Shown one piece after another: positions 772 through 11,033 of a stretch of 36,645 nt of DNA (position 1 is the first letter of the stretch; the number at the start of each line of letters is the position of its first letter). The translations under genes and the position numbers were made by a program. The notes under the pieces are model-generated. The model was not told where the DNA came from. It saw only the letters and a program-made list of their open reading frames with translations, and made no database searches. The DNA comes from Alphaproteobacteria bacterium. Its GTDB lineage: Bacteria; Pseudomonadota; Alphaproteobacteria; Rhizobiales; JAJRRF01. The stretch lies in contig JAJRRF010000270.1 in assembly GCA_024279735.1 (NCBI GenBank), positions 1-36,645 on the forward strand, in the 5' to 3' direction.

Positions 772-1276
772 TATTGGGTCTCCAGTGATGCAAATAAAAA
801 AACATTATAGGGCAGTCATGAGTTGGTGACCAGAAGTTTGCCTGGGACTGTAAATATTATAAGCTGTTGTCCTTCAGTATTTCTGACGGCACACGTAACG
901 CTACCAATATGTCAGGTATGAATGGCCTGCCCCTGGCCAGCTTTACGGTCAGGGCAGGGGAACAGGAATTTTGCGGTGTCCCCAGGGTAAGGGTTTGTCC
1001 TTGGGCTTTCTTTGCGGGAATGAGGATGTTTCCCGTTCCCCACGTTCATGTCAAACTTTGCCACCTAAAAATCATAGTACACGACTAATTTGCATAAGAC
1101 ATTGAAAAAGCGTTAAGATTTTCTGATTTGTTTCACGACATAATGAGGAAATCTGATGAAACACTTGATCAATGCCCTGCAAGGTTTGAAAACAAGCTGG
1201 GGAGTTACGAAAAAACATGAATTGATTCACCCTGATTAACCCCCATTTAAACAAAAAACTTGAAATGGGGATAAAA

Positions 1277-1447
1277 ATGCCATACTATGCTTATACTCAT
1301 AATGAGCAAAACCATGAATATGTGTTGTTATCAGGTCTTTTAAGAAAGGATTGGGCTGACAGGGCAGTGTTGGTTTTGTTAGGATATGACAAGGATCACT
1401 TTGGTCGTCCTAAAGTTGTCCAAATGTTTGGATATAGTGATAAGTGA
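1277..1447 (+). CDS. Small hypothetical protein (~56 aa; ORF extends to 1265)
   Basis: ORF MPYYAYTHNEQNHEYVLLSGLLRKDWADRAVLVLLGYDKDHFGRPKVVQMFGYSDK; GGGG ~8 nt upstream of ATG 1277; followed by a terminator-like hairpin. Confidence 0.55.
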   Translation: MPYYAYTHNEQNHEYVLLSGLLRKDWADRAVLVLLGYDKDHFGRPKVVQMFGYSDK

Positions 1448-1466
1448 TAAGTGAATGTAAATTCTA

Positions 1467-1492
1467 GGCCGGTTTGAAAATCGGTCTTTTTT
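1467..1492 (+). terminator. Rho-independent terminator of the small ORF
   Basis: GGCCGGTTTGAAAATCGGTC hairpin (one G-T pair) followed by TTTTTT. Confidence 0.75.
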
Positions 1493-1502
1493 AAGGTCTC
1501 TC

Positions 1503-1523
1503 TTATACTCATATAGAGTATAA
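1503..1523. promoter_or_regulatory. Palindromic operator candidate upstream of nadA
   Basis: TTATACTC-ATATA-GAGTATAA: perfect 8-bp inverted repeat ~90 bp before the nadA start. Confidence 0.55.
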
Positions 1524-1614
1524 CTAGTTCGTTCCATGAGGGGGGCTCAAAACAGGGAAACATGTTTTGCGGTTGCGCAAAACCTCTGAAGCCCTGGGCG
1601 TAAGGAGAAAGATT

Positions 1615-2724
1615 ATGGTTTTGGTTATGGATAATACTGCAACTGTTGATTTGCCTAGCTGTGAACTGTCAAGGGCAGAGAGGGCAAGTGCTGCCTTCAG
1701 GCAGAAAGTGAAAAATTACGCTCCAGAGATTGAGCTGGACTATACGCCTGCCATCGCTCGGGAAATGCGCCCGCTCTATAACAAGCTGAAATCCCTGTTC
1801 TCTGAGCAGGAATGGGCGGTTCATGCGCCTTATATAAAGGCGATTAATGAGCTGAAAAAACAGCGTAATGCAGTCATTCTGGCGCATAACTATATGACCC
1901 CTGAAATCTTTCACGGTGTATCTGACTTTGCGGGCGACAGTCTGGCACTGGCCAAGGAAGCAGCCAGGTCTGATGCCAAGGTGATTGTCCAGTGCGGTGT
2001 GCATTTTATGGCTGAGACCTCTAAAATCCTCAGTCCTGAAAAAACTGTACTTATTCCTGACAGTAAGGCGGGCTGTTCTTTGGCCGAAGCCATTACCGCT
2101 CAGGATGTGCGTGACTTGCGCAAGCAATATCCTGGTGTGCCAATTGTCAGCTATGTCAATACCTCTGCCGCAGTGAAGGCGGAAGTTGATATTTGCTGTA
2201 CCTCTGCCAACGCCGTCCAGATTGTGGAATCCATGAACGCGCCGCGTGTGTTGCTGGTGCCTGACAAATATCTGGCTGAAAATGTCAACAACCAGACTGA
2301 TGTTGAGGTCATTCCGTTTGAGGGCCGCTGTGAGGTGCATGAGCAGTTTACTGCGCCGATTATCCGCTCTTTCCGTAACGCCGAGCCGGATATGAAGGTG
2401 ATTGCCCATCCGGAATGCCCTGCCGAAGTGCTGGAAGAGGCCGATTTTACAGGCTCTACAGGCGGCATGATTGATTGGGTGAAGGACAATCAGCCTGAAA
2501 AGGTGATGCTGGTGACAGAATGCTCCATGAGTGACAATGTAGCGGTCGAAAACCCAAATGTTGAGTTTATCCGCCCCTGTAACCTGTGTCCCTATATGAA
2601 GATGATCACTTTGCCCAAAATCCTGGACAGCTTGCTGTTCATGAAGGAAGAGGTTTTCGTTGATCCTGCCATTTCTGCCAAGGCCTTGCGCTCTGTGCAG
2701 CGCATGATTGATGTGAAAATCTAG
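1615..2724 (+). CDS. nadA: Quinolinate synthase A
   Basis: AVILAHNYMTPEI, VQCGVHFMAE and CNLCPYMKMITL motifs with conserved Cys residues; AAGGAG upstream of ATG 1615 (ORF track begins at 1567). Confidence 0.97.
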   Translation: MVLVMDNTATVDLPSCELSRAERASAAFRQKVKNYAPEIELDYTPAIAREMRPLYNKLKSLFSEQEWAVHAPYIKAINELKKQRNAVILAHNYMTPEIFHGVSDFAGDSLALAKEAARSDAKVIVQCGVHFMAETSKILSPEKTVLIPDSKAGCSLAEAITAQDVRDLRKQYPGVPIVSYVNTSAAVKAEVDICCTSANAVQIVESMNAPRVLLVPDKYLAENVNNQTDVEVIPFEGRCEVHEQFTAPIIRSFRNAEPDMKVIAHPECPAEVLEEADFTGSTGGMIDWVKDNQPEKVMLVTECSMSDNVAVENPNVEFIRPCNLCPYMKMITLPKILDSLLFMKEEVFVDPAISAKALRSVQRMIDVKI

Positions 2725-2812
2725 TGTTCATTCATCTCTGCCAAATCCTCAGTGGCCAGGTGTTGCTGAGTGATATGGGCCGGGAGATATTGATATGGAG
2801 GAATGGAATGGT

Positions 2813-3355
2813 ATGGGACTTTATGAAAGATTTTTTAGAAAGATTCTAGACTTTTCGAGCCAAGGTTGGAAACCAAACCAAGTTATCAAATTATTGGAGG
2901 GTAAGCGTGATAAAAGGGAAAAGGATTATGCTTACCGTAAACATATTGGTCAGTGGCGTTGTTTAACACGTTCTGGGTCTTTGGGCTATAGCATGACAGG
3001 GACTGCTGACCATGTAACCCGTATTGGTTTTAGTAACATGGTTTATGGAAGCCCAGGTAAAGATTTTACAGATCCTGGCTTCCATAAATATTTTTATAAA
3101 AGAGCCAAGAGGTTAACACAAAAACTCACTGGTCAAGAGATACCAAAACAAGTCGCAGCTGATATCCTTTCACTCCAATTGGAAGAGGCAACCGAGAGAA
3201 ATCCTTTTAGGTTTTCGAGTTTTGGTAAGGGGGCAGAGGATTTACAATGTGGGTTTTCGTTTCGCGTGGTTTCAGCTCCTATACATATGCATAACCCAGG
3301 GTATTCTGTTTATTTTGATGTTTTGTGCCCTGATCTTGCCCGAAAACAGGGATGA
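2813..3355 (+). CDS. Hypothetical protein inserted between nadA and nadB (ORF extends to 2795)
   Basis: ~180 aa ORF; GGAGG at 2797-2801 suggests start at ATG 2813. No family recognised. Confidence 0.65.
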   Translation: MGLYERFFRKILDFSSQGWKPNQVIKLLEGKRDKREKDYAYRKHIGQWRCLTRSGSLGYSMTGTADHVTRIGFSNMVYGSPGKDFTDPGFHKYFYKRAKRLTQKLTGQEIPKQVAADILSLQLEEATERNPFRFSSFGKGAEDLQCGFSFRVVSAPIHMHNPGYSVYFDVLCPDLARKQG

Positions 3356-5217: not shown

Positions 5218-6080
5218 GCAAACAAAATAATTTAGCCCTGTTGCCTGAATATGAAGTCAGGCAAAGCGTCAGCAATGCCCTGGGCGAAGATTTGGGCATG
5301 GTCGGGGACATTACTTCCCAGTTGACCATACCAGCTGACATGGAGGCCAGTGTTGTCATAAACAGCCGTGAAAACGGGGTGCTGGCAGGGATGCAATATG
5401 CCCGCGCCGCCTTTGACGTGATTGACAGCAGCCTCGAGTTTGAACAGCTGAAACAGGATGGTGACGCGCTAGGGGCAGGGGACATTATTGCCAGGGTGTC
5501 AGGTAATGCCAGGAATTTGCTGACAGCTGAACGCGTCGCTCTCAATTTTTTGGGGCATATGAGCGGGATAGCCAGCAAGACAGCCCTGTTTGTCAAGGCT
5601 GTGGCAGGGACAAGGGCAAAGATTGCTGACACCCGCAAGACCACGCCAGGACTGCGGATGGCAGAAAAATTCGCGGTCAAGGCAGGGGGCGGGGTCAATC
5701 ACCGCTTTGGCCTGGGGGATGCGGTGCTGGTGAAAGATAACCATATTGCGATAGCGGGCGGCATTGATGCTGCGCTGAAAACGGTGGTTGCCAATGCGGG
5801 ACATATGCGCAAGATTGAGGTTGAGGTGGATACACTGGAGCAGCTGGAACAGGTGCTGGCTTACGGGATTGATACTGTGCTGCTGGATAACATGCCCCCT
5901 GAAATATTGAAGAAGGCTGTGGCTATGATTGATGGACGGGTCTTGGCGGAAGCCTCAGGCGGCGTGAATCTGGGCAGTGTGGCGGCGATTGCTGCAACAG
6001 GCGTTGACCTGATTTCAGTCGGGGCGCTGACCCATTCTTCCGCGACCCTGGATATTGGCCTGGATTTTCATCGGGGTTAG
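5214..6080 (+). CDS. nadC: Nicotinate-nucleotide pyrophosphorylase (quinolinate phosphoribosyltransferase)
   Basis: RKTTPGLRMAEKFAVKAGGGVNHRFGLGDAVLVKDNHI, VEVDTLEQ, LLDNM; ATGA overlap with nadB. Confidence 0.97.
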   Translation: MSKQNNLALLPEYEVRQSVSNALGEDLGMVGDITSQLTIPADMEASVVINSRENGVLAGMQYARAAFDVIDSSLEFEQLKQDGDALGAGDIIARVSGNARNLLTAERVALNFLGHMSGIASKTALFVKAVAGTRAKIADTRKTTPGLRMAEKFAVKAGGGVNHRFGLGDAVLVKDNHIAIAGGIDAALKTVVANAGHMRKIEVEVDTLEQLEQVLAYGIDTVLLDNMPPEILKKAVAMIDGRVLAEASGGVNLGSVAAIAATGVDLISVGALTHSSATLDIGLDFHRG

Positions 6081-6084
6081 GTCG

Positions 6085-7047
6085 TTACCGCTTGTTGTCC
6101 AAAGCTGTGATAATTTCTGTGAACAGTTTTTTGGCATTGCCATAATCCCTTTCAAAACAGTAGGCGGCAAGGGTTTTGCGCTTTTTCCTTAACATTTCAA
6201 GCGGCTTGGCGGTCAGTCCTGACTGGTTGATGGCCTTGAAGAGGTAAGTATAGGCCTGGCGGCAATTTTTAGTGTTGTAGTGTTCGGCCTGCCGTTTCAG
6301 TTCGGGATCTATTTCATCATTCAGAAATGTTGCATAGTCACCCAGAACGCTTTGGTACTGACGCTCTGCCTTGGCAAACTTCTTTTGTTTGCACAGGCCA
6401 AAAATTTCCTTGGTGCTTTTCCTGATCCACACCCTCATGCGCCCAGACAGTTTCTTCTTGTTCAGGCGTTTGTTCAAATTTCTGATCTTGTTGCGACAGC
6501 CAATTATGGACTTGAAATTGGCAAGCTGTGCCACCTTTTTTTCCTGCACTTGTTTCAGGACATGTAGCAGCCTTTTATGGTCTTTCAGAGCCTTGCCAAA
6601 TTGCTTCAGGCGGCAATTGTTTTGCATGTTAAGGCCAATATTCTTGAGGGTCTGGCGATCCTGCGCTGACAAACTGCTGTCCTGCATTTCATTGCGGTGG
6701 GATGCCAGTTCCTGAAGGCATTTATCAATCCCGCCAACCTTCTGGTCATGGGGAGGCATCATTGTCGGCTTGTTAGTCAGCATGACAGATGCCTTCATTT
6801 TTTCCAGTAGGTCATGGGCTGATGCAAACCTCTTTTGCTGGCACAGGACAGACACCTTGCCAGCTCCTTTTCTGAGCTGGTAAACCTGGCGTTCAGAGGG
6901 GGCATGACTTGCAATCAGCTTGCCTAGCGTTGCCAGTTGCCGCAAGCATTCTCCCCTGCTTTGTGATACCTTGTCAGCGGTGTCATTGGCACTGGCCAGA
7001 ACAGATGCACAAAGGAGATATATTATGGCTGTAAATATTGTTTTCAT
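6085..7047 (-). CDS. Secreted protein with four tandem C-x34-C repeats, unknown function
   Basis: Signal peptide MKTIFTAIIYLLCASVLASA from ATG 7047 (ORF track starts 7074); four repeat units each C-x34-C-x2-[KR]-x-[FY]-x2-A. Confidence 0.8.
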   Translation of the reverse strand: MKTIFTAIIYLLCASVLASANDTADKVSQSRGECLRQLATLGKLIASHAPSERQVYQLRKGAGKVSVLCQQKRFASAHDLLEKMKASVMLTNKPTMMPPHDQKVGGIDKCLQELASHRNEMQDSSLSAQDRQTLKNIGLNMQNNCRLKQFGKALKDHKRLLHVLKQVQEKKVAQLANFKSIIGCRNKIRNLNKRLNKKKLSGRMRVWIRKSTKEIFGLCKQKKFAKAERQYQSVLGDYATFLNDEIDPELKRQAEHYNTKNCRQAYTYLFKAINQSGLTAKPLEMLRKKRKTLAAYCFERDYGNAKKLFTEIITALDNKR

Positions 7048-7092: not shown

Positions 7093-7237
7093 TAGACCTC
7101 TTGCATAACCTTCTTCCTATGCACCAAATCAACATTATTTTGTCTCCTCAAATGCTCATGTACCCAAGTACACTGCGCTTTTCGTTAACAAAACAATGCC
7201 GCCTTGTCACAAAATAATCGGTTATGCAAGAGGTCTA
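7093..7237. mobile_element. MITE-like non-autonomous element (145 bp)
   Basis: Perfect 18-bp terminal inverted repeats: TAGACCTCTTGCATAACC (7093-7110) and GGTTATGCAAGAGGTCTA (7220-7237); terminal TA could be the target duplication; no coding capacity. Confidence 0.75.
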
Positions 7238-10206: not shown

Positions 10207-10704
10207 TTAGTTTGTGCCCAGGCCTTCACTAGGATAGGCCACAGAAACATGCTTGATGTGGTCTATCTTATAGAGGGTAACCAGTTTTTTCCACTGGAAA
10301 TCAGTCAGCACAGAGCGGACATTGTCGCGGCACGCCAGTTTGTTGCTGGCAATTTCCTTGCGCAGCTTGGTAGCCTGGTCAATCTTGGCCATAATTTTAT
10401 TTTTGTCCGTGCCTTTAAGGGCGTGTTTTCGGGAGCTTTTTTCAAGAACAGCTGCCTTGTGGATCAGGAAACGCATATGCCTGGCATTGTCTTCCTGGTA
10501 CAGGGCGAGGGCTGCCTGTTGCTTTTCGCTCAGTTCCAGTTCCGTTTTGTGGTTCAGGACGGTAGACATAAAGCTTGGTGTTGAGGCATCTTCTTGGTGA
10601 GTCACAGAAGGCCTTGTGTTGTCTTCAAAATAACCTGTAATCTCAGCCTGTGCAGGGGTGGCCAGGGCTGCCGAAAGGATAGCAAGAGTAATAATTTTTT
10701 TCAT
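10207..10704 (-). CDS. Periplasmic Spy/CpxP-like (LTXXQ-type) small protein
   Basis: Signal peptide MKKIITLAILSAALATPAQA; helical Lys-rich protein ending in VLTDFQWKKLVTLYK, reminiscent of LTxxQ proteins. Start at 10704, not 10791. Confidence 0.55.
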   Translation of the reverse strand: MKKIITLAILSAALATPAQAEITGYFEDNTRPSVTHQEDASTPSFMSTVLNHKTELELSEKQQAALALYQEDNARHMRFLIHKAAVLEKSSRKHALKGTDKNKIMAKIDQATKLRKEIASNKLACRDNVRSVLTDFQWKKLVTLYKIDHIKHVSVAYPSEGLGTN

Positions 10705-11033
10705 GGTAACCTCATAATGGTTATGGTTTGTCAAATTCGTTTTTAGCATATTCGCATATTTGAATGCAAATTGCACCAGCTCTTTTTGCATAGCTGCTAT
10801 GCACTGGCCAGAATAAATAGCTTAATAATGACCTCGTTACTGGACTATAGCCAGTTAAGTCATATTCGTATATTCGAATATTTACCTAAATGGATTTACC
10901 TATGACATTTCGTCCTGCTTTGATCAGCAAGGTGTGGGATAGTGCAGGGCTTTTTGAAACAGCACTGGATTAATAACTGTTTCATTGCTAACACTTTGGG
11001 CAATCTACTCAATTCAGCTAGCGGATAAAAGTG

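Follow-up and report, generated by a model that had tools for sequence, protein, structure and literature searches.

The locus at positions 6085..7047 (minus strand) of the analysed window, a stretch of 36,645 nucleotides from contig JAJRRF010000270.1 of the alphaproteobacterial assembly GCA_024279735.1, raises the question of what a protein may be whose cysteines recur in pairs at one fixed distance, and whether it represents, as proposed in an initial annotation, a secreted array of an undescribed repeat domain. The coding sequence starts with an ATG at 7047 and terminates with a TAA ending at 6085; it specifies 320 amino acids, the stop codon being included in the coordinates, and its reading frame is intact. 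GC3 is 0.56, in keeping with the 0.54-0.60 of the adjoining genes. The first 20 residues (6988..7047, minus strand) read as a signal peptide of the Sec type with a probable cleavage site after A-S-A, in support of the secretion originally assumed; the residues up to Cys13 (Y-L-L-C) do not form a lipobox. The product is strongly basic, with a net charge of +35 and a pI of 10.1.

The mature chain contains eight cysteines, arranged in the pairs 34/69, 110/145, 184/219 and 262/297, each exactly 35 residues apart, i.e. C-x34-C four times; Cys13, within the signal peptide, is the sole other cysteine. The pairs define four tandem units, all on the minus strand: unit 1 (residues 31-90, C34-C69; 6778..6957), for which three helices, A, B and C, are predicted, unit 2 (residues 107-166, C110-C145; 6550..6729), unit 3 (residues 181-240, C184-C219; 6328..6507) and unit 4 (residues 259-318, C262-C297; 6094..6273). 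They follow each other at a pitch of 74-78 residues, and unit 3 is the most basic, with a net charge of about +15 over 59 amino acids. As judged with a relaxed DNA pattern, each of the units carries the strict motif C-x34-C-x2-[KR]-x-[FY]-x2-A, including the part that follows the second cysteine.

The regularity was evaluated against random expectation. When eight cysteines were randomly placed on a mature chain of 300 amino acids, none of 100,000 trials yielded four pairs at the 35-residue distance, and 36 yielded four pairs that shared a spacing, whatever its length. Ungapped superposition of the four units gave, after removal of the cysteine columns, a summed BLOSUM62 score of 93, compared with -235 +/- 37 for shuffled sequences, none of which reached that value in 20,000 attempts; the best of 13,235 register-shifted controls scored 6. 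The four C-x34-C units and their common motif, as described in the initial annotation, are thus confirmed, and so is their strong divergence outside the pattern, since identity among them, cysteines excluded, is 14-21%. Such low identity, along with the presence of a MITE-like element just upstream of the gene, would fit a pattern arisen by chance in a Lys-rich helical protein, or a decaying gene. The shuffling and register tests, and the exact spacing conserved in dozens of relatives, refute a chance origin of the pattern and, together with the unbroken open reading frame, make this explanation extremely unlikely. The units are no nearer to one another than to the single-domain relatives described below; given this divergence, either the duplication is an ancient one or each unit was recruited independently of the others.

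Comparison of the window protein with Pfam, NCBIfam and PHROGs revealed no model passing its cut-off or significant beyond a short stretch, and no confident match to a Pfam repeat family. Similarly, no Pfam or NCBIfam model was over cut-off for seven single-domain relatives, and a description of the family was not found in the literature searched. The domain is, as judged by these profile comparisons, uncatalogued in the family libraries searched, in keeping with the earlier remark that no named family could be recognised.

The fold was predicted with AF2 on an alignment of unit 1 with 12 other sequences, namely the three remaining units and nine relatives. A three-helix bundle was obtained (pLDDT 87.6, pTM 0.71), with helices at positions 7-24, 28-46 and 50-66 and cysteines at positions 10 and 45. 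The small modules foreseen initially would therefore be helical, as stated, and three-helix bundles rather than simple hairpins. The near-invariant positions of the alignment are the two cysteines, the Ala following F-x2, a Leu at the loop between helices A and B, and a Phe. In two antiparallel helices connected through a loop of three residues, position 10 would lie opposite a position around 42, about one turn from residue 45, and the geometry is thus compatible with a disulfide linking helices A and B. From the co-conservation of the cysteines and the predicted topology, disulfides within each unit are considered highly probable; DsbB is encoded in the genome. A model of the full-length protein, computed without relatives, was weak (pLDDT 66.7, pTM 0.27), although it already suggested three helices per unit. 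Foldseek searches gave no match below E 0.001 for the unit model, and were uninformative for the full-length one, owing to the weakness of the model.

A different assignment is suggested by the region that leads from helix B, at its end, via the turn to helix C and is similar, along some 20 residues, to the core of one PPR motif, the second cysteine and the F-x2-A turn after it recalling the middle part of such a motif. Weak matches to the Pfam models PPR_2 (5e-4) and PPR (1e-3) were found over residues 66-87, and the family profile aligns with 20 residues of PPR structures. The protein might then be an exported alpha-solenoid of the TPR/PPR/Sel1 type, its cysteines decorative, with an uninterrupted groove in which proteins or peptides would be bound. 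The scores lie under the Pfam cut-offs (20.6 versus 30 bits and 19.4 versus 25 bits), as do the matches to TPR models, and the similarity is confined to those 20 residues or so. Compared with PPR and TPR models (PF13041, PF01535, PF07719), the window units have three helices, a pitch of 74-78 residues in place of 34-36 and a conserved cysteine pair; moreover, the unit also stands alone as a secreted protein. A solenoid is accordingly judged quite unlikely. The preferred anatomy, an exported protein made of four three-helix beads of one family, is held with high confidence.

Additional members of the family were sought within the parental genome. A profile built on the four units alone detected proteins on contigs C176 (E 8e-5), C254 (0.03) and C87 (0.09), all containing an exact C-x34-C. 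The first and the last are exported single-unit proteins of 92 and 91 amino acids, respectively, while that on C254 is 231 amino acids long and carries one unit at its C-terminus. A further relative on contig C2 (L035, positions 1171-2088, minus strand) is a frame of 309 codons with three cysteine pairs, 37, 36 and 36 residues apart, and an in-frame TGA which falls inside the second pair. Because TGA acts as an ordinary stop in this genome, where nadB, ileS and alaS all end in it, the likely explanation is a disrupted gene or an error in the sequence. Close by (L035, 447-869) lies the gene for a small thioredoxin-like exported protein containing a C-x2-C motif. With a second profile, nine units in all were confirmed for the genome; the initial cysteine pair of the C2 protein had no match. 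A strict DNA pattern gave 12 matches in addition to the four units, part of which were inspected individually; one of them, C254:2984-3114, is a true single unit.

The profile made from the units of this genome was then the basis for comparisons with other genomes, and matched single-domain exported proteins elsewhere in the order, with a best E value of 7e-8. The named relatives belong to Hyphomicrobium, Filomicrobium, and other Hyphomicrobiaceae or Hyphomicrobiales, each with an exact C-x34-C. Taking a match at E 0.001 or better as positive, 44 of the 103 Hyphomicrobiaceae genomes, spread over 16 of 25 genera, contain a single-unit exported relative. The domains located by the profile number 57, a figure that includes genomes fetched twice and hence does not correspond to 57 independent proteins; 54 of them keep the 34-residue interval, two have x32, and one, a partial match, has a single cysteine. 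None of these proteins contains more than one domain. The match of the whole-unit profile to these relatives holds also without the cysteines, and in hhalign the window units align with the Hyphomicrobium single units with a probability of 80% and an E value of 1.5e-5. Against the window units, the register anchored on the cysteines scored best in all of 31 single units, cysteines excluded (mean z 5.3), although most of the 31 were chosen by C-x34-C-x4-[hydrophobic]-x2-A, so that the hydrophobic and Ala columns were partly selected. The repeat domain of the initial annotation is real in the window protein, where four units stand in tandem, but it is not primarily a repeat: elsewhere, in Hyphomicrobiaceae, it is the single domain of an exported protein of about 90 amino acids.

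The search for further members, proposed at the outset, returned a C-x34-C family in Hyphomicrobiales; class-wide and phylum-wide profile searches revealed nothing convincing beyond the order. Scanning of IMG/VR and of genome contigs with the whole four-unit protein found no relative; in protein searches covering 61 relatives and, from the order, 398 genomes, only chance-level matches turned up, and tblastn of the single-domain relatives against plasmids gave none. No four-unit orthologue was found in the collections searched, and the four-copy array was seen in the window protein alone. In the collection searched, the family to which the window organism belongs is represented by this genome alone; unsampled relatives might therefore commonly possess the four-unit form. 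Three small exported proteins from another family of the order (L082, L085, L088) also contain C-x34-C and end in C-x-A-G-N, and lack the F-x2-A motif; they are plausible kin, possibly a sister family.

The single-domain proteins of Hyphomicrobiaceae, such as those of Hyphomicrobium sp. bin.114 (L107), Filomicrobium insigne (L109) and H. zavarzinii (L115), share with the window protein a signal peptide, and with its units the C-x34-C spacing, the F-x2-A after the second cysteine and an ungapped match to the profile. They differ in having one domain of about 60 residues instead of four, and in charge. Among the single-domain proteins checked two were near neutral or acidic and one was mildly basic, and the C87 protein and the Hyphomicrobium single-domain proteins are slightly acidic, whereas the window protein is strongly basic; the strong positive charge is therefore not a trait of the family. 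They differ also in genomic location. A phosphoglycolate-phosphatase-like motif is encoded upstream, on the same strand, in 23 of 30 Hyphomicrobiaceae loci (L118-L147), and the single-domain genes at L107-L115 are likewise mostly located just downstream of a phosphoglycolate-phosphatase-like (gph-like) gene. This conserved position suggests that the gph-linked genes form a single orthologous group passed on by vertical inheritance.

The window gene, in contrast, lies between nadC, which is convergent and ends at 6080, and a divergent ftsL-like gene followed by ftsI. Examination of the neighbourhood, as recommended in the initial annotation, thus yielded a conserved gph-like neighbour in the relatives and no functional clue for either them or the window gene. 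Genomic context was rejected as an indication of function, the window gene being flanked by nadC and ftsL and the relatives by gph-like or unrelated housekeeping genes. Between the four-unit gene and ftsL a MITE-like element of 145 bp is located (window 7093-7237), bordered by perfect 18-bp inverted repeats (TAGACCTCTTGCATAACC) and ending 46 bp upstream of the ATG of the four-unit gene, whose expression it may have altered; other copies, partial or diverged, are found on contigs C53 (97% over 107 bp), C255 and C196. The window also contains an ORF of 186 amino acids between nadA and nadB (2795-3352), for which no Pfam match was found.

About 3 kb from the four-unit gene, at 10207-10791 on the minus strand, an exported protein is encoded which shows a weak match to LTXXQ (Spy/CpxP-like; E 3e-4, just below cut-off). 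A stretch similar to this protein is contained in contig C234 (L025). Chaperones of the HdeA and Spy kind are, in general appearance, small helical exported proteins, and paired cysteines are found in HdeA as well as in PsiF repeats, which are also small and exported, with a spacing and a motif different from those of the window units. The units being small, helical, exported and with a probable disulfide, the four-unit protein could be an envelope or acid-stress chaperone of this kind, binding unfolded proteins through stapled helices, with the LTXXQ-like neighbour as a further hint. This role is rated unlikely: the Pfam families HdeA, Spy and LTXXQ are unmatched by the window protein, none of the LTXXQ/Spy-CpxP, PsiF repeat and HdeA models being listed for it at E values up to 10, and no link between four-unit and LTXXQ-like genes was seen in the relatives.

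Structural comparison of the unit brought in a metal-handling periplasmic protein, like LanD or UrcA, as a model, in which the small domain would bind metal and the array would serve to store or buffer it. Landiscernin, a small protein of the periplasm, binds lanthanides (PMC11996626), and LanD of Methylorubrum (PDB 9c8w), helical, periplasmic, small and from the same order as the window protein, is among the Foldseek matches, with TM values of 0.57-0.68; furthermore, L082, one of the distant C-x34-C proteins, weakly matches the UrcA model (E 0.03). The LanD match is not significant (E 3.7, with TM values of 0.61 and 0.68), and three-helix bundles are common; 9c8w is absent from a profile search of PDB sequences at E values up to 10. 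The UrcA model (TIGR04433) is unmatched by the window protein, and L082 scores 14.5 bits against a cut-off of 25. The near-invariant residues, Cys, Ala, Leu and Phe, include no acidic or His ligand common to the proteins, and the four-unit protein has a large positive charge. A metal-handling function appears very unlikely, and the lanthanide reading raised by LanD was dropped, given the lack of conserved ligands and the non-significant match.

The near-invariant residues are structural, which points to a stable scaffold and to a non-enzymatic role, in structure or in binding. Such a role, in the cell envelope, is the probable one for the four-unit protein. In the mechanism proposed, a mature chain exported by Sec would consist of four tandem three-helix bundles of 60 residues, in each of which helix A would begin around the first cysteine, helix B end at the second and helix C start with F/Y-x2-A. 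In the oxidising periplasm one disulfide per bundle would connect helix A, in its N-terminal part, with the C-terminus of helix B. Normally single-copy in Hyphomicrobiales, the domain has been multiplied in the lineage of the window organism, both as separate genes and as arrays. Through avidity, the four rigid beads of the window protein would then bind an acidic envelope partner, for example LPS or a polysaccharide or protein of acidic character.

The single steps of this proposal deserve different degrees of trust. The tandem units, the exact cysteine spacing and the kinship with single-domain proteins are direct observations, export and the three-helix fold are predicted, and the disulfide and the binding role are inferred. 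Taken as a whole, the best explanation, an exported array of four three-helix beads from an uncatalogued family acting as an envelope binder, is an evenly balanced judgement. That the family is disulfide-stapled and was arrayed in one deep lineage as a multivalent envelope binder is a conceivable but somewhat doubtful reading, and the action of the four-unit protein on acidic partners in the envelope is a tentative suggestion.

A domain missing from the family libraries searched is present in close to half of the Hyphomicrobiaceae genomes covered, with the same metabolic gene as the usual neighbour. The maintenance of exactly 34 residues between the cysteines, across 15-20% identity, offers a good test of a one-disulfide fold, and the four-unit protein is an example from nature of how an exported protein with one domain turns into an array. 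In practice, a family definition would be gained for proteins which match no current model.
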